Assembly: GCF_000003815.2 (NCBI RefSeq)
Contig: NC_049982.1
Span: 9,740,118 to 9,804,117, forward strand
Length of the DNA stretch: 64,000 nucleotides
Source of the DNA: Branchiostoma floridae
Lineage: Eukaryota > Chordata > Leptocardii > Amphioxiformes > Branchiostomatidae
Reading direction: 5' to 3'
A program made the translations under genes and the position numbers. The notes below the pieces were generated by a model. The model ran no database searches, was not told where the DNA came from, and saw only the letters and a list, made by a program, of their open reading frames with translations. The first letter of the stretch is position 1. The number at the start of each line of letters is the position of its first letter. This document shows, one piece after another, positions 838 to 62,524 of the stretch.

Positions 838-1317
838 TCTGATCCTATCATCAACTGATGCTTGCTGGATTTTATGCATGGAGTAGAAATCTTTTTGAAT
901 ACTTTGTATATTTAAGGTGTTGCAAACCTATGACTGAGAGATGCCCATCTTCTGGGTGAAAGTAATGCAATTCAGACAATGTATAGTACTGAATAATTTT
1001 TATTCTCTTGTGATACCTCTTGGGTGGCCGTTTCTTCGGTTCCATTCTTAAGAACTACATGTAGGGCGCAGACAATGCCTCTCATTCACAGCACCATGTG
1101 GCTGTGAACATCACTGATAGCATGCTACCCTTTTCAATGACTCAGCAATTCTCACGCTGACTGAACAATGCCTTTCTGGCCTACTCTTAATTCTACCGCT
1201 GTCCGCCAGCGGGTCGTTATGTACGGTACTTATCCCGTAAAAGCAAACACCTGCGATGCTTTCGGGCTCTAGCTAGAAATTCTATTGTCCATCTCAGGAT
1301 CAAAACTTCGAATCCTT

Positions 1318-4300
1318 CTACCCGAAGAACGGGATCTTGGTCCAGTCTGGTTGAAGCGTTGGTCGGGCGTTTGGCGGGTAGACTCGCGGGTCGGGCGTCC
1401 GTTTGTGGGAGGCGGCGGCGTCGCCGCCGGTCTGTTTGACCTGCCGCTCCTCGATGGACCGCTGCTTGTCCGTCTGGTCCCCGAATGGCGTAAGGAAGAA
1501 GGCCGGGTTGACCGAGGACGAGCGGACCGGGCTGCCGTCTCGGGTCCTCTCCGGGATCCTGTCGGCGGCCGAGCGCCGCCCGAAGGAGCTCCACATGTTG
1601 AGGTTGGCCGCTGCCTTGGGTGGCATCTCCGCCAGGACTGGCATCCCCGGGACGCCCGGCTCGTCATCCTGCTCGGGCGGAGCCGGAGACGCTTGCGGGG
1701 ACACCATCCTGCCGAACACCGACCACGAGTTGGGGTTGTACTCGGGCGGCTCGTTCTCGTACTCCCACCCCGACCTGGCGGTGTGCGACGTGGAGACCTC
1801 GGTCTCCGTGGTCTGCCTGGCGGTGCTGGTGCTGTTTTGCTCGGTGGTGGCGATGTTGGACGTGAGGATGCCATGCAGCGTGGACGCCTCCTCACCCTGC
1901 CGCCGCCCCTGCTGCAGCCCCCGCCGGCTGGACCCGTCCAGACCCGGCACCTTCCCGTGCATCATCTTGTACATCCAGCCAGTTGCCACCAGGACCGTTG
2001 TCATGGTGGACCGCACCAGCGCCTCGATGGTGGGCCCGTGCGTCAACACTTCCCGCAGCAGGACGGCGTCGTGCACCGCCCGACCGTCACCGCTCTTCGC
2101 CGTGTCTTCACGAGCACCTACACAGACAAACAAAACAAAACAAACATTTATAAACTCCATCATCCGCAAAATATGAGCTATGCATTATATGCACCTGACA
2201 AGTGTGACTTTTTTCCGAAAGAGTTGAAATTCTTTCTTCTGGAGTCATTATGATAATGATAGCGCAGTCGCTTGTTTAATTGTGGCAATGGTTGATGTCA
2301 ATCTCTAGGTAGATTTACCGGTGCCATAAAATAGTATCAGAGTTGACCAAGGAGTATAACCGGCCAAAGGGAATCAGTCGGGCACCGATAGTATCTTATA
2401 GCACCGGAAAATCTGCCTGCTGGGCATTAGGTTGACATAAAGATGATATGATCATAGGGACCATGGCTTGTAAAAGTTTCAGGCAAGTACCGTGTGTCGG
2501 TGTGAAGTGCTTTAATTGAAAAAAATGAAAATAAAAACGCGTATGCATAGAGTTACACACACTTATGTCAAATTCTAAGAGTCGTGCAAAAAAACACGTT
2601 TCCCCCGAGCCTGAGCATCGATCCAAAGATTTCTGTTATTGTCAGGTCAGCTTCCTGCCTCTCGTGTTAATCAGTTTCCGGAGGAGTGTGCGTCTGGGGG
2701 GATCAGAACTTTCGTCACCTCTAACACCACCGAGTGGTTAATACTTAGAGGTAAGACGCCTCCATTAATGTTTCCTGTAGCCCGTCTTAATTCGTTCTCG
2801 AAGCAAAGCCGAAAGAGAGAGCTCCTCTGACCGCTTCCTGTCCGAGGAATCAATGGTGGATTTAGAGTGCGTCAAAAGCCTGGATTTGGTGCTGGAGCTA
2901 ATTAATAGCTTAGCTAAACCCGGTCTCGGTTGCACTTATTCGAATCTGTAAAGCGCTTACTGGCCGGGGAGGATGTAGGGGTGTGTAAAGCCTCAGAAAC
3001 ATTCGTAAATACCGAGCATGGTCCTACATCTTTTTGGACGGGGTAGAGAAGATTGAAACATGAAGCTTGAGGCTCACGATCACAGAAACGGTATTGATGT
3101 ACCCACAATTTAAAGGTGTATAGTAAAGCAAAGGCGAATAATCAATTAACTTGCGTGGACTGTTCAGTAGAGAAGAGTTTTACTGACACGTTTAATCAGT
3201 CATTTTAAGCTCTTTGCAAAAAAGATCATGCGACAAAACAAACAAAAATTAAACGCTACCTAGCTAAACAAAGTCGATGTCATTTGAAATAAATGTATCT
3301 GATTAAGTTGCATGTTACGTTCTGATTTGAGACGTACTTCGTCAATTCCAACTACTGCACAATCGAAAACGCTTGCGCCAAGTGTTTTGATGTCGTTTTT
3401 TGTGTAATCTCTTCTACTAAGATGGTTCAATAAACATGAATAGCCAGATCGAAACGATGGCATGAAGCTGCATGTTGCTGGAGATAAAAAAAACGGCATG
3501 TTCAGAAGTCGGTCAATCGCGCCTACTGACGACTGAAGCTGGCTTTTCCCAGCAGTGGATATCATATTCTGGTAATCAGGTAATCAAGCAAAGTGCAATT
3601 GTTTTAGTAGAAATCTTCTTTGATGCAGGTCATAAGTCGGGTATCTATAAGCAATCGCCCCTGTTTTCTGATCACATTACTAACGGGCTTGTAGAAAAGC
3701 CCATTGGGAGAGGAACATGAAAAGGTAGGTTGATTTTTAAAAAGGCGTGGATAGGATTTTGCATAAAAGCAAAAGCAAATCGTTCACAATAATTGCCATA
3801 AACAAGCGTTGCGAGGCTCAACAAATATTTCAATACATGGCGGCGGCGAAATCCCCGCCCCCAGGCTTAAGTTCCAGAAAGCCGGAAAACCTGCACTGCC
3901 GTCAGCGTTCAAAAGGAGGATGGACTAGTACGGAGTGCAATAAGTACGGAGATCGCCTTTTCACATATTTCCTACGTAACACTTCCTGGTGTTTTGTTTT
4001 AACAAATCGCGTACAAATGAGGAATCGATAGACAGAACAAGGCTCAAAGCTTATGTACAATGGATACTTTCGACCAGAATCTACCTCTAATGTACGACTA
4101 ACAGGTGCTGGTGTAGACGTTTAGCCTCAGGTGCTAAATTAACGCCACAGAGCGTGGGGATTTTCTTGTCCAAGCCGGTGACTGCCTTTTGAACCCGGCG
4201 GCAACGAATAATTTTGTCACTGATACAACTTCAAGTATGATTTCAAATTAGTTTTTGAAGTATGAAGTGAAATGTTCTGCGCTAGGAAGTCAGATTTTCA

Positions 4301-4969
4301 TTAGTAATTGATTAGATCAATTAACCATTTACCAATACGCTTGGAATGGTGATTTGGAATACATGTGCACGCTATGAAAGATACCGGTCCAACGCTTTTA
4401 GTTTCAACAGACATGAAACAGTCTCTTAATAATGTGCAGCACGGAAACGAATTCTGGAGTTTGAAGAGAAGAGATGCCCAATTTTCCAAACAAAACATTA
4501 ACAGTTTCAATATTCTTCATATACACCATGTGCTGCTGAAGGGATTCAGTTTCAAACAGTGTTTTCCCCTTAACGGTTCTTGGTACTAATAATGTCCGTA
4601 GCGACAATACAATTAGGCGTTTTAGGGTTTATAATGTGCTTTTTATCTGATGGAACAGAAGTCCGTACTTGGTTTCTCGTGGGCCGTCTTCTCTACGGAT
4701 GAACGCATTATAAGTCACGAAAAAGCCCGGCTTGTAGAGCTTACTAAACAATCTGAATCAAACCTACCTATTGACACTCACTCACGATAAAAGGTATGCT
4801 TTCGTGATGTGACAGTGTAGTACATTTGTCATAGTCTGTTTAATACTACCTGTACAGAACGAATAAAACTCACCATGTGGAAGGAGAATGTCTCTCTGTG
4901 TGCCCCTGCACCCCATACTACATGCTACGAGTAGCAGCACGGCAACCAGTAACCTTCGTTTCATCATTC
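1318..4969 (-). CDS. Secreted neuropeptide/hormone precursor with W-x-x-F-amide motifs (gastrin/CCK-like site)
   Basis: There are two coding exons: 4969-4874 (ATG 4967) and 2117-1318. Donor G|GTGAGT and acceptor CTGTGTAG both sit in phase 1, giving 297 aa. Residues 1-20 (MMKRRLLVAVLLLVACSMGC) form a clear signal peptide, so the product enters the secretory pathway. The mature part has several dibasic sites (SSRR, GRR) and two repeats of an amidation context: SWSVFGRM and MWSSFGRRSAAD. The second matches the ...W-x-x-F-G-R-R-S-A-... end of vertebrate gastrin/CCK. An acidic Tyr-rich stretch (WEYENEPPEYN) precedes the first. The protein also ends in PFFG directly before the stop, which could donate another amide. 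Residues about 45-80 include a hydrophobic stretch, so a membrane segment cannot be excluded. The rest of the chain is Ser/Thr/Pro-rich and unrecognised. Gene structure is well supported; family assignment is a hypothesis. A poly(A) signal lies at 999-1004. Confidence 0.7.
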
Positions 4970-5776: not shown

Positions 5777-5837
5777 CTGTACCAAGCCGCTGAAAATCTT
5801 TCTCTGAATCTACTCAACAACTCACTTCTCTTATAAA
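5777..5837 (-). promoter_or_regulatory. TATA promoter and non-coding first exon of the peptide-precursor gene
   Basis: On the minus strand a TATA box (TTTATAAG, bases 5837-5830) is followed about 25-30 bases later by a short ATG-free exon that ends in a strong donor (ACAG|GTGAGT) at 5777. The next exon starts at 4969, only two bases before the initiator ATG, after a good acceptor (TCTATACCAG). A TATA-driven tiny leader exon is common in secreted-peptide genes. The start site itself is inferred. Confidence 0.5.
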
Positions 5838-6389
5838 CCCGCGTTAATTAGGCTGAAGGGCTGTGTGGACGCATCGCCCCTTCCTCCTGTCAATCAAAAG
5901 TGGCACTCCCACGTCAGAGAGGCTGAGTTTCCCGCGCCAGTGGGGGGAAATGCCGCACGGCGGCTTTGTCGCGGGGTGGCGAACTGGTCATTAAGCAAAC
6001 TGCGATTTGGTCCTCCTGCGTAAGTGGCTGCCGACTCGCGGAGGGTTATTGACACGGCGATTACTGGAGCCGGAGGGGAATCAGCAAGGAGTTATCCGAA
6101 CACGTGTGCCGTGAGCCTCGGTAAATGGCACTTTAGAAAGGGCTTAATGCAAATTAAAGCCTTTTCTTGTCGCCTTGGCGAAGCTGTAAACATTCAGTTT
6201 CTGTTTCATCGTTGCTAGCAAGTTAAGAAATATTATTTCATTCTTTTTTTCAACTTTGTGCCATAAATAACGCACGTATGTCTTGGTGATGTAAACGGGA
6301 AAAACGACGGACTTTAGATGGAATTTAGATAAGTTCGATCGTGTTAACGCTGGAATATTGTCAGATTCTATCGTATAGCTATAATTTGC

Positions 6390-6562
6390 TAGCCTGGGTA
6401 CCATCCGGAAAGTAGTTCGCTCCGGCGTTTATCATACACTATATACAGTCACTTCTCGCTCTAACATATACTATATACTGTCGCTTCTCTGCTGTTCGGT
6501 GTCTAGAAGGGTAGCAGAAGTGAACATAGGAGCGAACTACTACCCGGATGGTACCCAGGCTA
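6390..6562. mobile_element. Non-autonomous DNA transposon (MITE) with 9-bp target duplication, copy 1
   Basis: Inverted ends TAGCCTGGGTACCATCCGG / CCGGATGGTACCCAGGCTA bound a 173-bp element. It is flanked by an exact 9-bp direct repeat ATAATTTGC at 6381-6389 and 6563-6571. No ORF is present, so it would need a transposase in trans. A 9-bp duplication fits Mutator-like elements better than hAT (8 bp) or Tc1/mariner (TA). The superfamily is inferred from the duplication length alone. Confidence 0.75.
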
Positions 6563-7164
6563 ATAATTTGCAACATTTCGCAGACAGACAAGTCTATTTT
6601 CCAAAACCTGAGAAACCTTGGAAGAATTCCGAAGAGCCTTGAGTTAGCGCCCGACATTTGCCCGTCTGACAGAAAAAAAAGTTTAACTACATCGATCTCG
6701 CCTCCGCCCGGGATTTCGGCTCTAGCGGGGATTCTGCAGAAAGTGGTGCCTTCAGGCGTCTAATGCTTAAGTAAATGTCAGGACGCGCAAACTTTGCGGG
6801 AAACCTGGGCTTTCTCGATCAAGGGATCACCTGTAATTCACACTTTCCGGGGGACACCCCGACAAATTGGCATTGGGGGAACAATACAGGCATGAGTATT
6901 GCTGTGTATGGCAAAGCCATCTGACATAAGGACTGTATAAAATAACTGGCCGCTACAAAGAAACCCATTTTTAAAACCACATTTACTTAAGCCAGGGTCA
7001 TAATTCCAAACGGCCAAGCAGTTTTAAAGATCAAAAGTTTAATATCAAAGAACAAAACGTAGAAGAAAAATGATCATGCGTATAATGTGTGTTACGTTAT
7101 ATTTTGGATTCACAATTCTAATTGTTGTTCCCGTAGACAGTCCGGTCGGGCTCCGGTTTGTAAA

Positions 7165-7703: not shown

Positions 7704-7856
7704 TAGCTGGGTACCATCAGGAAAGTAGTTCGCTCTGGTGTTTATTATATATACAGTCGATTGTCGCTCTGACATTAATTATACACTGCATAAAGTCGCT
7801 TCTCTGATGTTCTGTGTAGCGAACTACTACCCGGATCATCATCGGTACCCAGGCTA
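7704..7856. mobile_element. MITE with 9-bp target duplication, copy 2
   Basis: Same family as the element at 6390: it begins TAGCTGGGTACCATCAGG and ends GGTACCCAGGCTA, with the same internal GTAGTTCGCTC/GCGAACTACTACCCGG arms. Length is 153 bp. Flanks are TGATAATAG (7695-7703) and TGATAATAC (7857-7865), 8 of 9 identical, consistent with an older insertion. Confidence 0.7.
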
Positions 7857-9646: not shown

Positions 9647-12600
9647 TTACTGAATAGCTGAGAAGCTTATGTTTCCAACATCTAACTCTGCAATAGTGTC
9701 CAACCCGAGTTCCTCCAGCAACTTTCCAAAGCTGAGGTTCTGTGCCACCGGTTCGTTATCGCTGTCCTTCCCCTCGTACACTTCCTTCAGGGGCGTGAGG
9801 CCAGGCAGACCAAACTCCCGCAGGGACCCCAGCTGCCCAGGAGAGGTCTTTGACCTTTGAACCCTCCCCAGTAGAGGTGCGAAGCCGTCCTTGATGGGAC
9901 TACCGTGCTGTGTTAGGCTGTTGCTGCTGTGTAAGCCACTGTCTGGGGTCCTGGGAATGGAAAAGTCTTGGATGGGAGAGAAGAGTCCTGGACTACGCGA
10001 CTTAGGAGGCGTCACCGCGGCTTTCCTCGGCGTGGAGGTCGTGACGTTGCGTCCGATCACAGGAGTCCTGAGGACAGATCTGAGAGGAGAGATCTCCAGA
10101 TCCAGACTGTTCAACAAGTCGCTGAAGCCCTTGTCTGGAGAGAAGAGCAGATTGCTGTCTGGTGACCACAGGAGCTGGCTTCTCCCTACAACATCCTCCT
10201 CCTTAACACACTCCTTTGTAGGCGTGAGGTTAGTGGTCTCTTTCAGTGGTGATGAGGACAATGGCCGGTAAAACGTTGGGACGGGCCTGCGCTGAGAAGA
10301 GGTGGGAGAAATGATGGACTTCCGTTTGCGTGGCGGAAGGTCGAACTCGCCTGGTCTCTTGATGCCCTGTGTGGCAGGCTTGGGGAAGATTGTCCTGCCA
10401 GTTACACCACTGGGCCTCAGGGAGGGGCTGGGAGGAACAGGCAGGTGGCCCTGGCATGGCAAAACAAAACAAAAAACAATTAATGATTGCTTGCAATGTC
10501 GACTTACACTCTTGATATCACATAATTAGGGCTGTGTACCTAAATACCCGTACCTGTATCGTACCTAAAACAATGTTTAGGTACAGGTCCGGACCTAAAC
10601 ATCTGTGTACCTGTACCTGTACCTAAACAAACTAAATCACTATTAACCACTACTTTTTAAGACTGATGGACAAGTAAATCTCGAATCAACAATGACAATG
10701 TTGATAATCTTGCAGTTGAAACTTAAGAAAACTTCCAGAAGAAATTGGTTTGAGACTCAAACATGTAATTCCAAATACAAAGATGACAATTTATCACTAG
10801 AAAAGACAGTTAGCTACATGTTTATCTTACATATACTTGGTTAAACTTTTTTAGGTACAGGTGCAGGTCCAGACCTGTACCTAAACCTGTGTACCTGTAC
10901 CTGTACCTGTACCTGAAATTTGTTTAGGTACACAGCCCTACACATAATGCACATGTGGTCTGAGACAGTTGGACTTAAAGATTTAGTCCTAAAATCTCCC
11001 TTACTTTGATGCTGGGAAATGTTATATATGCTCCTCTCTGTCAATCCCAGGCACATGAAACAGCCCTACATCTGCAAGGTCACTCACCTTGGGTTGAATC
11101 CTGACCACCCCACCAGATCTGCGTCCCGGGGTGGGGATACTGGCCACTGGCGCTGGGGTCGGTAACACCATGGGGACCACTGTGTAAGCACTGGGTTTAG
11201 GTGGGCAGGGCAGGAGAGGGGGTGGGCCTGGTGCATGGAAGAGGCAAAACACGAGTGATCAGTTTCTTTGATCAAATTTTTCCCTTTGTTGTTCTTCTAC
11301 ACAGGATTTGATTTCTGTGTACAACTTGTATTTAAGACATCTTATTAAAGGCATAAAGAAGACAAACAGCAGTTAACCCACCAGAAGGATATATCTGCGT
11401 GTTGGTCGTGCATCTTAGTCGCGCTTCTCTTCGCTCCATCTGGTCTATTGTCAAACAGCGCTCCTGAAACGATTTGTATATGTCAAACATGAGTTCATCC
11501 TTTCTTTGCTTAATGGGTCTTGTACAGTTAAATCTGAACTGTACAGTACTGTGTGGCTGTCAAAACCTTACAACCAAGCTGTAAGCACAGTACATTTCAT
11601 TTTGTCCCAGCAGGAAATTTGGGTTATACAGTTGATCTGAATCTCACTTCTATGACTGATGAAACATGAAGTAGTGTACTGGTGTTTCACATAACCGTCT
11701 TTGTCCCATCACATACCTTAGCCTCATGACATAGAGTCCAGTATGACAGTGCCCTGCCGCTCTCACATTTTGTTGTCTCACGTATGAAGATGTCGTGAAG
11801 TGACAGATTGTGCCGGATGGAGTTCTGAAAGATATCATTATCAGTGAAAGATGTCAGATGTCACTAGTATTAATCAAACTAATGGGTCAGAAAAATTAAA
11901 CCAAAGTATATGGGCCATTCTTAAAACTGCTAACTGCAGTATGGATTGCGTGCCCTCCCAGAACATGGGGAGGGGTGGAGCATATTAGATATACATTATA
12001 CTGACCTTCCATCCTTGTTTGGCAGTCTTGAAATACGGGAAGCGACCTTCGATCCACGTGTAGATTTCCTTCAGTGTCATGCGGCGTGCGGGACTGCTGT
12101 TGATGGCAAACTGTATGAGCGCCATGTAGGAGTAGGGCGGACGGTTGCTGTCGTGGGACTTCCTCTGGGGCTGCGCACAGAAGTAACATATTATTGTGAT
12201 GTTCTCAGACATAAACTTTTTGGTATAATGCTAGTCGAAAAGAATATTCAGGACCTGGTCTAGCAATGCTAGACCAGGTCCTGAATATTCTTTTCTGTGG
12301 TAAGTGTCTTGATAATATTGAATGTGTTAGCCAGACAAATGTATAGCAAAATTTTTGTTTTTCTTTTGCAATCTAAAACAGAATTTTATTCAAACTGCAG
12401 TACCGGTATTGTAGTTGTGATTTGAATATCATTATCAAAAGATTGTATAGGTGGCAGAATGAAAGAGATTTTTGTCTACAGATACAGTCTTATTTTATAG
12501 TTTTAATAATTTTACTCATCCCTTACAGAGCAATGGTACAGTCCTTACCTTGCCTATCCTGTCATATTTCCTGTCCTGTTTGTCCAACAGTGTGTTGGCT

Positions 12601-16060: not shown

Positions 16061-17210
16061 ATGCCACGTCGCCGGAAGAAAACAGGCGACCAGAAGCATC
16101 CACTGATGTTTACGGAGAGCCCATGTGAGGGACCCCGGCATGACAGCACGCTGGTGTTTGCCGCACACAGCCCTGTCACAGCTGATATCGTCATGGTGGA
16201 CCCGAATGACACATCATCATGGGTAAAAACAGCGTTCCAGAGTAGTATTCTAATATATACCCTCCTCCACTAATGCATGGAGGTACAGTAAATTCCTTGG
16301 CTTTTGCAGTGGTCATATTTAGCAGTTTTTTTCCCAGTGTTTTACTTTTTGATTTAAACAAGGTTGAAACAATTCTGTAGTACAATTACATGTACAATAG
16401 TCATACAAGGGAGACATATGCCCCAGTGTCACAAAAATGCAGTGGAGAGGAAATGAAACAACTGCAAAAGTTTCAAGATTTACAGGTCATTATTGAATAA
16501 AAAGCCTGCAGATCCACACAGAGTCTTACAGCTGAGGGCAGAATACTTGTCTTGGGTCCATCAGTTCTACCTGTGGAAAGGGGCCAGTGGAAAATACTGA
16601 TAAGTTCAACATTTTCAATAAAAAGACAAGAATTTGTAGTAAATGCATTGCTATTTACATTTCGGTGGAATCCCCAACACACATTTCTGCCTCATTGTTT
16701 TAGGTTTCCCCCCAGTTTCGAGCCAGCCAGATGGCCTGCAGTGAACCCAAACGTAGGAGGCGGGGAGCCAAGAAGACGTCCAACAATCAAAGTGCTGTGG
16801 TCGGCAGGCGGAAACAAAATCCAACTGGACAAGAAAACATCAGCACTGTACAAACAAATGATGTCCGGACGAAGTTAAAGTATGGGATTCTGAAGTTTGA
16901 AGGAGAACAAACGTACACTGACTTTTCTTCAAGTAACGACAGTACGCTAGAAGAACTGGACATATCAGAGGAAGAGGATGACCCAAAATGTCAAGAAGAA
17001 GAACAAGTTACACCAAACAGAAGGCATGATGAAAAAAACAGAACTAACAGAGAGCCTCTCCTTCCCCCCAAAGACTGGACTGACAAACTGAACACAGCTG
17101 CCAGGGATATTTTGGTACAAGACACTCCTGTTGGTTGTTATGGCATGAAAGCTAGTGCGCAGAGAAGACAGGAACTACTACGCGCAAAGACATTCCAAAC
17201 CATAGAATAA
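16061..17210 (+). CDS. RHNO1: RAD9-HUS1-RAD1 interacting nuclear protein (RHINO) orthologue
   Basis: Two coding exons, 16061-16222 and 16704-17210 (phase 0), give 222 aa (human 238). RHNO1 binds the 9-1-1 clamp and supports ATR-CHK1 checkpoint signalling and DNA repair in the nucleus. The evidence is concentrated in three motifs: the basic start MPRRRKKTGDQK; SWVSPQF, which corresponds to the RAD1-binding SWVSP motif and is created exactly across the exon junction (TGG|GTT); and the C-terminal VQDTPVGCYGMK...RRQELL, matching the vertebrate DTP...YG(I/M)K...RRQ(H/E)LL. The rest is charged and poorly conserved, as expected in this fast-evolving family. It lies head to head with FOXM1, as in vertebrates. 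Poly(A) signals are at 17293-17298 and 17505-17510. Confidence 0.88.
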
Positions 17211-53600: not shown

Positions 53601-56600
53601 TGTCCGGGTGAGTTCAAGCAGGACTGTCTGGGTATTCTTGTTTTTCTTACAAAGGCATAAGTTGATGTAATGATTGTATGCTTATGATGTGATTGATGTC
53701 ATTTGCTGGTATGATTATAGAGCTTTCTTAATTGCTCATGTATTTGTAGCAATTCTCATGTAGCCACCATGCATCAACCTATGATGCAAGCGAACGATTG
53801 ATTGAACTTTTCTCCATCACAATTTCACACCATTGTTTCTCCTCCTCTAGCCCTTTGATGCAGGAGTAGTGCAGGTGGACAGCTCGGACTCGGAGACAGA
53901 CATGCTGCCTGAGCCTGACGACTCGGAGCTGCCGCCCCGCATGTCCGTCTGGGACCGGCGCTCGCGCGTCCTCCACCGCCTCCACTCCATGGAGCAGGAC
54001 CTGCGGCGCCGCCTGGAGCTCCTCAGCAGCGCTGCAGCCCGCCTCGACCAGATGGAGAACGAGATGCGCAACATGATGGGGTCGTTCCAGGGTCAGGAGC
54101 AGGGCATGCTGCCCAGGGGGCGGGTTTCCGCACGGTCCCTAGCGGATCCGACCGCCAACCGTGCCGACAGCACTGCCATCAGGGCCAGGAGAGGGGGAAG
54201 TAGTAACATGCCTCCCAGTTTACAGGGAACGGCGGGCAGGGCTTCGTCATCCAGCCTGCACGATCTGGACGCCCGGTTATCCATCAACCACCAGAGGATA
54301 CGCAGAACGCAGGAGTTCATCGATAGGTTACGGGCTAGGCTTGGACTCCAGCCGTCCTCAACACTCAGCAGGTACGAGAACTTTCCGTCCGACGAGGTGC
54401 CAGGATTGGGCAGCAGGCGTGGCTCTGAGAGTAGTCAAGACAACCGGCTGAGATTGACAGCCTCCCCATTTACCACAAGTAGCTCCAATGACACTGGTAG
54501 TGGTAGCCGGAGAAGTCTGCAGTACCGGTCTAGCATCAGACGTAACTTTGCCAGCCAGTCTTCTGCAACCAGTGCAGAACTGACAACCTCTGTCAGTGTA
54601 CACAATGCTGGCACAAGTAACATGAACAGACCGGGGGTTAGCTATATTTCGAGAGGCTGTGGGAGTAGGAATTCTTTCGGTAATGTAAATGGCCAAGACA
54701 TCTCTGCTAATGGCAGTGCAAATACCACAAGTAATGGTGGTGTGATGACTCAAGGCACCAGCGTAAGCACTTCTGGTGTGACCCTGCCAGAAACTGGTAC
54801 AAACACAGGCAGTAGTGGTCCTAATGTGCCAGACACTAGCAGTAACACCACTGGTGCAAGTGGCTTCAGCACACCAGTTTCTAACGGCAGAGACAAACCC
54901 GGCAATGTTGCAAACACATCAGATGTGAACACAATAAAGAACTCCATAGGTAGTGATGTGACACAACCCTGCAATACTAACTGTAACATCAAGAAGGAGC
55001 CAGCATCCATAACTGGCACAAATACTGGTAATGTCACAAGGTCCAGGCAGACTATGCATGATGCTGAAAGTAACGCCAGGGGAGGAACTTTTCCTCCTGG
55101 AGAGAACACCTCTCGCAGGCAGGCGGCAGAAGGCCTGCTTGACCTTGGAAACCCGTCCCCTGGGAGACCTCAGTCAAGGTCAAACACCTCCCAGACAAAT
55201 GCTATTACTCACGAAAGGAAAGACCCCAAGCATCTTTCCAGTGCAAATACGGGTACAACTCCCAGAAACAACAGCAGTACTCCTGATGCCGTAAGAAATC
55301 CCCCCCATTTTTGGACACTAGGTTTCAGCACTGGTTCACAGCACGGCCATGATAGAGGTTTCTCCCTTCGGCACAGTCGTAACACAAGTACAACAAGCAC
55401 AAGCACCGCTGCTACATCTACAACAGAAAGCAGTCGACCCCCTGCGATGAGCACCAGCACTTCTATGGTTTCCTCTTTGCTTAGACCAAATCAAAGAAAC
55501 CAGTCAACGTCCTCTGTAGAGTCTGTCCGTTCAGGCAGCACCTCCGTATCTAGAAACAACAGAGAAGCCTCTGGAAACACACATGCTGATGGAACTGAGT
55601 CAGAGGAAGACCTAGAGCCTCCAGCAAAGAGAGCCAGACGTTCCTTACCTTTACAAAAAGCATCAACTTCCACATCAAGCACACCGTCGGATCTTCCAAA
55701 CGTGGGCAGAGCTTCCAACAGTGCTAGAGAAGGTGGAAACCAAGCCGTACAGGAAGCATCTTATCCACTGTTACCACCACGGGGTGACCGTAGGTCATCA
55801 CCGTCAAGCCTGGCTCTCAGCAGAACTTCCAGTGAGTCCAGTGTAGGGGAAGGTATGCCCGCCCTGAGCGAACATTTTACGCTGCCTTCCTACCACGAGA
55901 CAGTTGCTCACACCGGTGGTGCAGAGACAAACAGGGAAACCAGCACAACAAGGGTCACTGCTGCACAAAGCTCCGCTGCTCAAACCACAACAACAGCCTC
56001 CCGTACGGACTACGGCGGATATGCCAGGATTGGCTACTTCTCTGCCAGACCAGTGCGGAGGGGGGCGGTCAGGAGAAGCTGGACGGAGAGCCAGCAGTCT
56101 GGAGATGACATGGAGAGTGCCTCAGGCATCGAGAGCCAGCTCAGGTACCAGGCACATCAAGTCAACACCGCCAGGAGGAGGCTGGACTCCCTACGGCTGA
56201 GGAGTCTGCGGGCACTCAGGTCTCGGGCACAGAGGTTAGCATGGATAAGGGATCCTGTGGGGTTTTAGATGAGGCTTTGATGAGTCTGTAGAATCTGTCT
56301 ATCAGATGACTGAATAGGTTTGGTATTGTCTTTTCAAAATTTTACTGAAAGACTTATTGCTTTGGATAGAAAAAGTTAAGCTATGAAGCAACCACTGTGT
56401 CTTCAGATAATTAAAGGAGAAATGTGTGAAATAAAAGTCTAGAAATAGCCAAACAATACAAATACATGTCAGAATAATCCAGAACAACAAAGACAAAGAC
56501 TCCTACATTTCAAGAAATGTGGAAAAGATATGTGAAAATGGATTTTTTTTCCCAGGGCCATGTCTGGAGAGAGTCCTTACGAGTCCCCGTCCACAGTGAC

Positions 56601-59600
56601 CAGACCAGTGGTGTGGCAGACCTTCTCCCACCCCACAGAGCCCCAACCACCGGTCAGCAGCACCAGAGCAGGGAGTCTGGAACCCACCTCTGCAGGGGAT
56701 GGTACGGTCCAGGAGAGCGCCTTCTCAACTAATGTGCCATCACGCTTCTATGGCCAACATACCAGGTGATATGAAATGTGTAATCTGCTATAGTTTGCCA
56801 AAATATTAATGTTGTCTTACTTAAAAAACTTAATGCCTAAAAGCAGAATCTGTTTGTAAAACTAAAAGCATTTTAATCATACAGTCACTGAGTCAGGTCT
56901 GTACATGTGACTATTTCTACAAACATACAAGGACCACCTGACCATTGACTTTTTGGTCATCCTTTAGGTAATTTCTTCAATTGACACATGCATTAAGAAT
57001 CCTGTTCACGGTGACCAACTGTCCGAAGACCAGATTTATCAGTACCCTCGGTGGTCTCCTTGGGCAGTTTCGTTCACGCCTTCTATATTTTAAAGCCCTT
57101 TTTCCACTAATATTAATAACAGTTCTGTTAACATTGTAATGTTCCAGGTCAGAGAGCCATCGCAGCCCCCTGGGGTACATCATGCGCAGACATGCACTGA
57201 ATGAAGGAGACAGGTAGGAATAAAGAATACGTGTAAAAACGACTAACCATTAGTCCAATGAAGTGCAGTGAGTGGGTACCAAACCTAAACCCAAAGTGTA
57301 GTCAGTATATTTGTAAGTCTGGTGTGTGCACATCTAAAGTTACAACATCTGATGTGTAACATTCTGTAGATTGGATGATTGTCAGGGAAAAACTGTAGTG
57401 TTAACATAATGTAGTGTAAAATTGGTGTCTGCATGTACATGATGATGATTATACATGAAGTGCTACCTTGGAACATTGCAGCAATGTAGGAAACCCCTTT
57501 TGTACAGTAATTGAGAAATTCTTGTGATGTCTTCCCACCAGGGAAGGATCAGATCGCGGTAGTGAGCGGGTACGGCGGAGGCTTCACGGTCGTTTCAGAC
57601 ACCACACGGCTGGATCATCAAGGTGACCGGTCTTCTTCCCCTTTAAGTTGAAAAGACTTCAAATACAGCTATATTAACTGTCCAAAGGCCTGATGGAAGT
57701 ACAATTGTATGTCTTTCCCTCGGGTCCAAAGTGTTGGATAACTTCACACTGTAGCTAAACCATGTGTAGCTATATTTGTAAGGGACATCTTCATGGCAAA
57801 GTTATGTGATAAAATGTTCACTATTCTTGCTGATCTTGGTATAAGGTAATACATTCTGATAAGAGGTCCACTTGTCTAATTGACAATGGTATCTAACTTT
57901 CTGTGATATTGTTCCCCCTTGTAGGGCCCAGCCACGAGTAGAGTACGTCCACCCCCACTACCGCAGTGTTTTCCATGGCTCCCATCGACCATCCAATGCC
58001 GTCCACTCTGCTATTAACAGGGCCATTGCTGGTAAGCACCCAGGATGTCTGCCATCCTAATCCCAGATGTAGAGGCTGTTAAAGAATTTGAACAGTAAAT
58101 TTGTAGAGTGCCTAGTATAAGCCTGAGAAACAGTGTGAATTATACATATGAATAATGATTCTTGACAAGTTAGTCCTCTTATAAGGAGGTATTTTCGTAA
58201 ACAACATATCATTTTGTTTAAGAAAATACCTCCTTTTAAGAGGACTAGCCTGTCAAGAATCATTCATATGTATAAGTCACACTGCTTCTCAGGTTTATAC
58301 TACTTGATGCCTCTGTTATAAACTCCAAACAGACATCTTTTCATCAATTTTCTTTACCATTTTATATGAAAACCACAGGAGCCTTTATCGGTACAGGAGA
58401 GTCCGCAGTGGCCAGTAACATAGTGAATACCACCCATCGTCTGCAGTGGTGGGACTTCACCAAGTACCAGCTGCCTGAGATCAGTGATGGTGAGGACTCA
58501 GCACATTGTTTGTGTGAAGGTTTTAAGTGATGCATTTTAGATTTTTTTTATGATACATGTGATATGCAAGAAATTCAAATCACCTTCACCTAAGTAAAGC
58601 ATTAAGTGAAACACGTATATCATAAAAGTTTTGGATTTGGAGTCCCTCAGGACCTTCTTCAACTGCTTGAGTATTTGCGTCAGATCGGTTAAGATGTATT
58701 TTGTGTGATAAAATGATAAAATACATTTACTTAATCTATTTTCGTTACTGTACTGACTTACCTGTCATGTACCTTGGATGAAAATTTGAATTTCATTTCT
58801 CAAGGAAATGTTACATCGTAGCAAGCAGTTGTTGCATCATTTTTTCCAAGACTATGAGTATGTTCTTACATGAACGCCCTCTCCCCCCACAGCCAGTGCA
58901 AATGTGATCGTACCCCACTGTAAGATCCACAACGATGCCAGCATTGATATCTCCAAGGATGGCTGTTACCTAGCAACCTTCATCCCCAGTCACCGTGGTT
59001 TCCCTGACGACGCTGTCCTGTCCATCATCTCTCTGCAGAAGGACACTCTCGGGGACATCCTGTATGCCAAGAGCTTTGGTGAGACTCTAATTGTTGATAT
59101 TATAATGGAAACCTAACGTTAATGAAACCAATACTGTACTCTTGTTGAGAAGAGTAGGGGCGAAGTGGCTGTAAGACTGAGCAGTGACAAGCTGTATAGC
59201 ACTACCAGCCATAGAAAAGAGTATTATGCTTTGCCTCATCCTAGATGATGGCTGGTACTCTCTGCTACTTTACCATGGGCAGGTATTGTAGTGATAAAAA
59301 TGATACAACACTGCTAACGTCTAGTTTGAAAATTGCTACCGCTAATCAGTTGGACAGGGTGGATTGTGAAAGACCAGTATGTCATTTTTAATGGCTACAA
59401 GTGTTTAACAAGGCAATTGTGATCTAACTAATATTTGTGATATTTATTGTCACTGTTAATCATGAGCAGCTATTCATTTGTGCCACATGTAAACAGCTAC
59501 TTATAGCAGCCACTGTAGTTTTTCAAAAGCTGCATTTAAGTCAATTGTCAATGCTTTGGGGCTAATATACATGTACTAGTATGTTAGAGCCTTGGTGTAT

Positions 59601-62524
59601 GGCCCTTAGAACACACCCCTTATCCCATCAAATAGCCCTCTAATTTACAACTGTTAACAACGTTAGCTGCTTCCTCAGGTCCCAATGCCATCTCCGTGAG
59701 TATCTCTCCCCTGGGGAACTACGTCCTGGTGGGGCTGGCGTCGCGCATGCTTCATTGGCAGCTGGTGGACAAACAGATGGTGGCCCAAGTCTTCCAGCTC
59801 AGACCCGCCGCAGAGAAGGCTCTGGAGGGGACTCTTGTGGTAAGGAAGGGAGTAGGGAGGCTGTGTGAGTGTGTGTCTCTGTGCATGCGTGTGAGCAGTG
59901 AGACAGAGTTATTACAGCTTGGTCACATTCGTCATACATGTTAAACAATTTTCAAGCAGGCTGTCACAGAGCCAACTGCCAAGAATTTAAGACAGCTGTA
60001 TTCTGCATGACACTTGCTTCCCAAGAATACCCTCAGCTTGCAAACAATGATCATACAGCAAAATTGATGGGGTGACTTGTTTGATCAAATTAAAGTGAGT
60101 GAGTAATGTGGTTTGATACTTTGTAAAACAGTTCTCAGCAGGTTGGTACAGTACTTTAAAATTGAATGATCATACAGCAAAATTGATGGGGTGACTTGTT
60201 TGATCAAATTAAAGTGAGTGAGTAATGTGGTTTGATACTTTGTAAAACAGTTCTCAGCAGGTTGGTACAGTACTTTAAAATTGAATGGCTGTAAAGTCCT
60301 GTTTAGATTAAGGACCTATTTCTGAATTGGGGCCTGGCCGGGATGTTCGCGGAAACGAAAAGTTAAACTGTTTATGAAGGAAGTTACATAAATCATGCTC
60401 CTGACAATTTTTTGTAAGTTCTGTGTGTTTTGTTGCCTTTGTTATCATTTTTTTCATTTCCAAAAGCTACCCAGCTGGGTCCTGGGTTGGGAATTGGGAC
60501 CTAGTCCTTAGGAATATCACAGTGCTACATCAGTAACATTCTAGTAGATGCTACAGACATGAGTTGAATGTTCCTGTTTGTGTTGGCAGCATGTTCAGAA
60601 CGTGATGCACCACTGTGACCCTGAGAGACGGAGTCATGTGAGTGTGAACTCTGCCTGCTGGCTCCCGGGTACAGGCAGGGGCCTGGTGTACGGCACCAAC
60701 AGGGGACATCTACAGATCTGTCGGCTAGGGTGAGTAGCTCAGCACACAACTGGCACATGGCCATACAAATGAAAATTTCAGTTATGGTCTTAAACTCTCT
60801 TACTCTCACCTCTCAAATAAACGTACCGGTACGTTTATTTATTTCCGGCTCAAAATCCACCCGGTACGTCCTTATTTTAGACGGTACGTTTATTTTTTTT
60901 TTCAAATTGGGGCTTTCTTTACTAACCAGGGACCCCAAAAATATTAAAAGTTTGGTATTTTCTGCCCATTTTTCCGCTGTATTTTTGCTTAATATTCACT
61001 ATTTTTCGGACGAGGCTTTGCGGATTTCCCTGCCGCTAGCGCTATGACCCAAACATAACTAGGGATGCGTACCGGTACGCAGGACCAGTTCTGGACTTGC
61101 AAAAACGTTTCGGTTCAGGTCCAAAAATACCGGAACACAAGTGATTCAGCACTGGACTCGTAAAAAAATATATCCTTTTCGTTTTGAATCATCTTTAACC
61201 TTCCAAAAATCTTGAAATGTTGCGCTGAACAAAGACGAAAACATCGAGGTCACATGCTACACACACAGTCGCTTACTTCCGTAAATTCTCTATCAAAACA
61301 CAGAAATTAACCACCGACCAAACAAATTAAAAAGTTACCAATACTTTTCCACTATTTTTCACCCGTAGTCAACTTGCTTTAATGTTCCAGCAACGAAAAA
61401 ATCATTCCAAAACAAAGCATAGCGTTCACTCGGCTCGAAAAGATCCGCCATGTTGGATTCATCAACTCACGCCGAATCTCGCGGTAATGCGCGAGAGAAT
61501 CATATATTTTCTGCAGTACCGCTATTTCTCGATAGGGGGCAGTGTCCATGACCTTGGTTTCTGCAACATTGAAAATAGCACAAGTGGTGAATAAGGTATT
61601 CTAAGTTGGAATGTTATTTTGTAACAATGATTATAAAATAAACTTCTTTTTTTATTTCTTCAATTTTTATTTTCATTCATTTTTTTACTTTTATTTTAAT
61701 CTTTGTTGATGGTGTGACACTCAGATAAAGAAAATATGTGCAATAACATAGGAATTATTCTGTTCATTATTTATACAATTAACTGATATGGTAATAAAAA
61801 ATAAAAAAACTGATATGGTACTGAGGCATAAATAAATAAAAAGAGCCTACCTGCTTATCATCTTCTCTTGGACTGAAGTAGCATGGGCACAGTTTACATG
61901 TCAATTTGGTATTTTTCCGGGGGGTACTTTTATTCCAGGGGGTACTTTTATTAGATTTTGAAGATTTGTCCGGGGGGTACTTTTATTCCAGGGGGTACTT
62001 CTATTTGAGAGGTGAGAGTAGTGGATTACAAATGTTAAGAAGTTGCTTTTTTGCCATATAGACAAAATTTGATATGATAGATTTTTGGTTGATTCCTGCC
62101 TTAATAGTTAAATGCAGTGTTCTACAAACTTACTGCAGTGACAGTATAACTATTGTTCCTCTTCTTGGGCAAGAAAGGTATCACAGAACAGTTTATTTTT
62201 TTTTTCAGTTTTGATGACCATTGAAAACATATTAGGGTGTAGGAAAGAAGGTCTCACAGCAGTTTTGTTTTCCCCAGGTATGAGCCCGGGAGCCAGCAGG
62301 AGCAGCCGGAAGAGCCCAGACTGGGGCCAGCGCAGAACCCGTTTCCTCCCGGCAGCGGCGGGGGCGGCAACGCTCGCATGACGGCCCGGCGCTTCTCCGT
62401 AGCTCAGCGGGTGGTGAGGGAGCGAGGTGTGCAGCACCCCATGACCAACTCCACTGCCACGCAGACCCCGCCTGGTATGACGTCCGCGGGGACTCAGACT
62501 GATCAAGATATATCCTCCATATAA
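50625..62524 (+). CDS. AMBRA1: Autophagy and Beclin 1 regulator, CUL4-DDB1 substrate receptor orthologue
   Basis: Fifteen coding exons: 50625-50756, 51380-51438, 52489-52672, 53056-53228, 53541-53607, 53851-56234, 56556-56765, 57148-57213, 57542-57622, 57925-58031, 58379-58489, 58893-59078, 59679-59839, 60590-60729 and 62278-62524. They give 1435 aa (human 1298), with all phases consistent. The N-terminal WD half contains [34 protein letters not shown] and [14 protein letters not shown] long Ser/Thr/Asn-rich middle is one 2384-base exon and holds a basic PPAKRARRS patch. The C-terminal WD half contains [36 protein letters not shown] and [20 protein letters not shown]. The split propeller matches human AMBRA1. 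The end carries two TQT dynein-light-chain motifs. AMBRA1 acts in autophagy and in cyclin D degradation. A 3' UTR of about 1.45 kb ends at AATAAA 63968-63973. Confidence 0.94.
51543..51998 (-). mobile_element. 3' fragment of a CR1/L2-type non-LTR retrotransposon
   Basis: The minus-strand frame from about 51998 encodes the typical post-RT tail: [20 protein letters not shown], then [20 protein letters not shown] followed by LP. Downstream on that strand lie a stop and a (TGCAGA)n tail at 51543-51570, as expected for this class. It is 5'-truncated and inert. It lies in AMBRA1 intron 2. Confidence 0.7.
56928..57068. repeat. Diverged pogo/Tigger-like remnant in an AMBRA1 intron
   Basis: GGACCACCTGACC at the left and GGTGGTCTCCTTGGGCAG at the right resemble the inner ends of the element at 13069-13520, and ACACATGCATTAAGAATCCTG resembles the copy at 21960. 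Outer termini are decayed. Confidence 0.35.
58113..58302. mobile_element. 190-bp long inverted repeat in an AMBRA1 intron
   Basis: Arms of roughly 88-90 bases pair with few mismatches, for example CATATGAATAATGATTCTTG against CAAGAATCATTCATATG, and GGAGGTATTTTC against GAAAATACCTCC. The ends read TAGTATAAGCCTGAGAAACA. TA at both edges could be a target duplication, but this is not certain. Confidence 0.65.
60046..60283. repeat. Exact two-copy tandem duplication, 119-bp unit
   Basis: The units 60046-60164 and 60165-60283 appear identical over the full 119 bases, both starting AATGATCATACAGC. They lie in the AMBRA1 intron before exon 14, away from splice sites. Perfect identity implies a recent duplication or an assembly duplication. 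Confidence 0.85.
60801..62020. mobile_element. 1.2-kb non-autonomous element in the last AMBRA1 intron
   Basis: Inverted ends TACTCTCACCTCTCAAATA and TATTTGAGAGGTGAGAGTA are exact over 19 bases. Just inside are repeated GTACGTTTATT units (left) and GGGGGTACTTTTATTCC units (right, 61914-62006). No ORF fits a transposase. The interior (about 61060-61610) looks different in composition and may be a nested insertion. The superfamily is unknown; TA at the edges would fit a 2-bp duplication. Confidence 0.65.

Follow-up and report, generated by a model that had tools for sequence, protein, structure and literature searches.

A W-x-x-F-amide precursor gene of Branchiostoma floridae is very probably a published kisspeptin-type precursor and not a relative of gastrin and cholecystokinin

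The gene described here lies on the minus strand of a 64,000-nucleotide stretch of the Branchiostoma floridae genome (G000:C4:9740118-9804117, hereafter the window, in which all positions are counted from its first letter), and very probably, at roughly 0.92 by our own estimate, it represents, in an assembly of 513 Mb and 431 contigs, the gene of the kisspeptin-type precursor GI:260827077 or an allele of it; this precursor is named Bflo4 in PMC4062910 and Bflo2 in PMC4772807. This identification is drawn from the predicted protein, three of whose candidate peptides end as published for GI:260827077, two of them with the full set of kisspeptin-type core residues, and from the phase of the intron that separates the signal-peptide exon from the peptide exon. 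The first-pass annotation of the locus had proposed a gastrin/CCK-like ligand, diverged or hitherto unassigned, or else an independent W-x-x-F-amide family.

Gene structure

Judged from its sequence, the locus is a real gene for a predicted secreted hormone precursor (Table 1). Its two coding exons join to give 894 nt in frame, encoding 297 amino acids and a stop codon, and the intron, which 94 coding bases precede, is in phase 1 and lies between the exon bearing the hydrophobic signal peptide MMKRRLLVAVLLLVACSMGCRG (judged by eye only) and the one bearing the peptides. The splice from 4874 to 2117, the 297-residue product and the signal peptide had been proposed in the first-pass annotation, and the in-frame phase 1 join is confirmed from the sequence; the two amidation contexts on which that annotation rested, SWSVFGRM and MWSSFGRRSAAD, and the acidic stretch WEYENEPPEYN are likewise all present in the product. 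The GC content of the second coding exon at third codon positions, compared with 0.61 and 0.55 at the first and second, supports coding. The antisense frame of this exon is also open, so that an open frame by itself proves nothing.

Table 1. Features of the precursor gene, with positions in the window; splice sites were read from the sequence, and cleavage and amidation are predicted
Feature	Position	Strand	Remarks
TATA-like TTTATAAG	5837-5830	-	Upstream of the putative 5' non-coding exon; by eye
Putative short 5' non-coding exon	5777..5805	-	Donor CAG/GTGAGT at 5777/5776; exon start a guess; by eye
First coding exon	4874..4969	-	Acceptor TATACCAG/GA; ATG at 4967; coding part 4967-4874, 94 nt; signal peptide MMKRRLLVAVLLLVACSMGCRG; phase 1 donor CATG/GTGAGT
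Intron between signal-peptide exon and peptide exon	2118..4873	-	Phase 1; 41% GC
Second coding exon	1318..2117	-	800 nt; acceptor GTGTAG/GTGCTCG; holds every candidate peptide and the stop (1320-1318); 68% GC, GC3 0.88
Candidate peptide 1, SGWEYENEPPEYNPNSWSVF-amide	1711..1773	-	Arg before, Gly-Arg after; core N-7, N-5, W-3
Candidate peptide 2, AAANLNMWSSF-amide	1579..1614	-	Lys before, Gly-Arg-Arg after; core N-7, N-5, W-3
Candidate peptide 3, SSSVNPAFFLTPF	1480..1521	-	Arg before; N-8 and F-4, Ala replacing the second Asn; Gly then Asp after
Possible peptide 4, TPDPRVYPPNARPTLQPDWTKIPFF-amide	1321..1398	-	Lys-Arg before; terminal Gly directly before the stop
AATAAA polyadenylation-like signal	999..1004	-	3' of the stop; another at 814-809; by eye

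Just upstream of the gene there is a palindromic element (6383-6569) with 41-nt arms that are 88% complementary, and a related arm is found 1.1 kb away at 7707-7742; from its sequence, the element looks like a miniature inverted-repeat transposon.

Candidate peptides

The C-termini follow one another in the product as NPNSWSVF-G-R, NLNMWSSF-G-R-R and NPAFFLTPF-G-D, and the protein itself ends in the glycine of possible peptide 4. Two of the four candidates thus have an amidation glycine followed by a basic cleavage site (G-R and G-RR), and the best-supported products, as predicted from the precursor, are the peptides ending in WSVF-amide and WSSF-amide. Amidation of peptide 3 is doubtful in this assembly because its glycine is followed by Asp and not by a basic residue. 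The four endings, VF, SF, PF and FF, are neither Leu-x-Phe-amide nor RFamide as in vertebrates.

Peptide 4 stands outside the kisspeptin core rule, and its IPFF-amide ending is absent among the endings of GI:260827077 that are listed in section 15 of PMC4062910. We consider it rather unlikely that the precursor gives rise, in addition to the VF and SF peptides already in print, to a 25-residue C-terminal TPDPRVYPPNARPTLQPDWTKIPFF-amide without the kisspeptin core, which would be released at Lys-Arg and amidated at the terminal glycine; if it does, this peptide could use another receptor, and one precursor would then feed two signalling systems.

Identity as a kisspeptin-type precursor

Four kisspeptin-type precursors of B. 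floridae were described by Elphick and Mirabeau in 2014 (PMC4062910), where the peptides of one of them, GI:260827077, are said to end in VFamide, SFamide and PFamide; the same entry is included among the KP-type precursors in PMC4772807. The three endings in the window (NPNSWSVF, NLNMWSSF and NPAFFLTPF) are those three published endings, the two proteins having been compared through the published description of the peptides. A search of literature text did not find the strings NPNSWSVF, NLNMWSSF, NSWSVFG and MWSSFG or the name BfKiss.

What chordate kisspeptins have in common, according to the relevant part of PMC4062910, is Asn at -7/-8 and at -5/-6 and F or W at -3/-4. These positions are fully occupied in two of the four candidate C-termini, where W at -3 falls within the rule, and partially in a third (N-8 and F-4); the fourth does not fit. 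The alignment behind the rule includes GI:260827077 itself, so that the fit identifies the gene and is no independent test of homology. The conserved asparagines of peptides 1 and 2 had gone unmentioned in the first-pass annotation, and since they and the VF, SF and PF endings match a precursor already in print (PMC4062910), the ligand is not "hitherto unassigned", as had been suggested there as a possibility, and on present evidence it is not the member of an independent family either.

Vertebrate kisspeptin genes and starfish KPP1 are reported to share a conserved phase 1 intron that separates the exon for the signal peptide from that for the neuropeptide (PMC9400282, in the portion cited), and the gene in the window has this feature too; a match of phase would be expected by chance about once in three times, which makes it support and not proof. 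Like vertebrate KISS1 and KISS2, the precursor combines an N-x-N-x-aromatic core, an amidated aromatic end and this intron, whereas its core (N-7/N-5/W-3) lies one residue nearer the C-terminus than theirs (N-8/N-6/F-4), an FGLRF/Y ending is missing and there are several candidate peptides per precursor. The sea bass kisspeptins YNLNSFGLRY and FNFNPFGLRF (PMC4489612) have the N-x-N-x-aromatic core in common with the peptides of the window. As to the ending, RFamide is named in the relevant text of PMC4062910 for just one of the four B. floridae precursors, GI:260827077 being among the other three, so an RFamide end is not required within amphioxus.

The Pfam Kisspeptin profile (PF15152) has no match in the protein, nor did a profile scan of the genome give one, which is weak evidence since the controls of that scan were silent also.

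Chance and copy number

The first-pass annotation had allowed that its short match might be due to chance, and this holds for the short motif taken singly and not for the two motifs together. In the genome, a W-S-x-F-G-R-like DNA pattern occurs 429 times on the forward and 469 times on the reverse strand, against 541 and 471 times for a reversed control; being no commoner than the control, the short motif carries little on its own. When the 297-residue protein without its first 22 residues was shuffled 200,000 times, W..FG[KR] was found at least once in 205 shuffles and twice in none. The pattern N.N.[WF]..FG[KR], which is present twice in the real protein and was drawn up after the published kisspeptin rule was known, was seen in none of the 200,000. 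A slightly looser N-x-N core, searched in six frames through the window and the adjoining 20 kb, is found at these two places only. The internal repeat alone is modest, as the best pair of 11-residue segments (seven identities) was equalled in 29 of 2,000 shuffles.

No second copy of the gene was found by tblastn of the assembly, in which three matches up to E 10 were obtained, two of them the gene's own exons and the third a match at E 0.49 with 25% identity and internal stop codons; the three endings are therefore not common to any close paralogue visible to that search. A search of PDB sequences with the product gave no matches up to E 10.

Alternative readings

GnIH/NPFF-type peptides, whose motif is PQRF, were rejected, there being no PQRF in the product. 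SALMFamides were rejected as well, since the endings are not of the LxF or FxF type and the intron is in phase 1, rather than in phase 0 as in SALMFamide genes (PMC9400282, in part).

Among the alternatives that have to be weighed, the one that survives best is an independent family of W-x-x-F-amide neuropeptides that came to resemble kisspeptins by convergence. The resemblance is indeed short, there is no RFamide, the Pfam Kisspeptin profile is silent and peptide 4 is off the core. We nevertheless regard this as quite improbable, given two asparagines and an aromatic residue at the published positions, a phase 1 intron, and the assignment by specialists of a published precursor with these endings to the kisspeptin type (PMC4062910, in the text cited).

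Less probable still is a diverged amphioxus precursor of the CCK/gastrin family, whose peptides would carry a sulphated tyrosine, end in W-x-x-F-amide and act on CCK-type receptors. Like gastrin, CCK and cionin, the peptides have W in position -3 relative to an amidated F, the second motif is followed by GRRSA and an acidic residue, and an acidic stretch with tyrosines precedes the first. Unlike them, they lack the Met-Asp between W and F, so that WSVF and WSSF stand in place of the WMDF core. The tyrosine is also misplaced, since peptide 2 has none and the nearest one of peptide 1 is at -8, as against -6 in the octapeptide DYMGWMDF. A match to Pfam Gastrin (PF00918), as these hormones have, is not listed for the protein in a search up to E 10 whose filters remove most matches above 0.1; a genome scan with the same profile also gave none and is uninformative, its controls being silent. 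Besides DYMGWMDF-amide of vertebrates, PMC4772807 gives, in the part used here, GLFW-amide and GLFF-amide as starfish forms and HMRF as an insect variant, and the WSVF and WSSF ends fit none of these. The same source has CCK peptides and receptors apparently lost in B. floridae, and the amphioxus GPCR set is reported to lack CCK receptors A and B in the cited part of PMC2246102. In PMC5627052, a figure legend does name B. floridae among the species used for four alignments of which CCK is one, leaving unspecified in which of the four it appears.

That kisspeptin-type peptides and CCK are easily confused is apparent from echinoderms, whose kisspeptin-type KP2/KPP2 precursors were formerly annotated as CCK-like (PMC9400282, in part), a circumstance that may also be counted in favour of the CCK/gastrin reading; echinoderm KPP2 differs from the precursor in the window in having one coding exon in A. 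rubens and Gly-x-(x)-Phe-amide ends. CCK/gastrin was rejected on the core motif, the position of the tyrosine, the Pfam result and the reports that its receptors are absent. Of the first-pass proposal, then, a W-x-x-F-amide precursor that is likely secreted has stood, while its assignment to the CCK/gastrin family has fallen, and that to an independent family is, as noted above, quite improbable.

An acidic, proline-rich secreted protein that is no prohormone and whose WSxFG repeats are structural can practically be dismissed, for although the product has long low-complexity stretches and a weak Pfam Mucin match (E 0.63, under the curated cut-off), both strong motifs carry an amidation glycine followed by Arg or Arg-Arg and have basic residues before them, and a precursor with these endings had been annotated earlier (PMC4062910, in the text cited).

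Genomic neighbourhood

Other genes of the window were noted in passing. A forkhead gene lies at 9650-12230 on the minus strand, where the Pfam Forkhead profile is matched in two stretches (at E 2e-18 and E 1.1e-8), and divergent from it there is a RHINO/RHNO1-like open reading frame at 16704-17207 on the plus strand (Pfam E 0.012, under the cut-off); we take the pair to resemble the head-to-head FOXM1-RHNO1 arrangement of human. Between 37726 and 46078, a RING finger exon, a PHD-like exon (E 7e-5, just below the cut-off) and an Arg/Ser-rich frame of 1145 residues all run in one direction on the minus strand and presumably form a PHRF1-like gene. On the plus strand, 53851-59941 holds a Ser/Thr-rich frame of 805 residues and then further frames, which in our view resemble AMBRA1; in the two stretches of this region that were tested, no Pfam family matched at E 0.1 or better.

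Synteny was examined on the contig of the window, C4. TRAK/HAP1, which we assume to be neighbours of CCK/gastrin genes, have four matches over the cut-off on C18, and none of the nine matches listed is on C4, a point against the CCK/gastrin reading. Four families of the vertebrate kisspeptin region, taken from the portion of PMC4015844 that names them, were looked for in the assembly: GOLT1, GYS, TEAD and PPP1R15. For glycogen synthase (GYS), the N-terminal half is on C4 (profile positions 10-361) and the rest on C172 (402-590), so that C172 may belong with C4 or may be an alternative haplotype. Both TEAD matches are on C19, and PPP1R15 was not found in the Pfam scan of the genome, which shows little because the controls were silent. 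A Got1-family match on C4 translates to an SFT2-like protein, and GOLT1 synteny on C4 was dropped; to us the match reads like SFT2D3 rather than GOLT1. Taken together, the TRAK/HAP1 and kisspeptin-region placements neither support nor refute the identification.

Proposed mechanism

The arrangement found in the sequence, namely a signal-peptide exon, a phase 1 intron and a peptide exon with two N-x-N-x-W-S-x-F-G motifs followed by Arg or Arg-Arg, is that on which the following scheme is built. By analogy with neuropeptide processing in general, secretory neurons would make the precursor, prohormone convertases would cut it at the basic sites, a carboxypeptidase would remove the basic residues and PAM, the amidating enzyme, would convert the glycine to an amide. 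The resulting WSVF-amide and WSSF-amide peptides may then activate at least one of the expanded set of amphioxus kisspeptin (GPR54-like) receptors, and action through receptors of this kind is the likely mechanism. For B. floridae, 16 kisspeptin-type receptors are given in the relevant part of PMC4062910. Functional data are reported for proteins of B. japonicum (as cited in PMC9400282 and PMC7282810), whose receptor BjGPR54L-1 is activated by BjKissL-2 according to PMC9400282; the passage in PMC7282810 has two kisspeptin-type peptides acting on one amphioxus receptor, citing work of 2017, and that in PMC5818035 gives B. floridae as the species of this 2017 receptor work.

Conclusions

In conclusion, the gene almost certainly encodes a precursor that has already been described as kisspeptin-type in amphioxus, and no lost cousin of gastrin and cholecystokinin. 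A false lead is thereby removed, the W-x-x-F-amide motif of amphioxus not being the missing CCK, and a known trap is seen to have been repeated, echinoderm kisspeptin-type precursors having once been taken for CCK (PMC9400282, in part). The published kisspeptin-type precursor is now linked with a gene model that lies on a long contig of the assembly, and the phase of its intron is added as evidence for kisspeptin ancestry.
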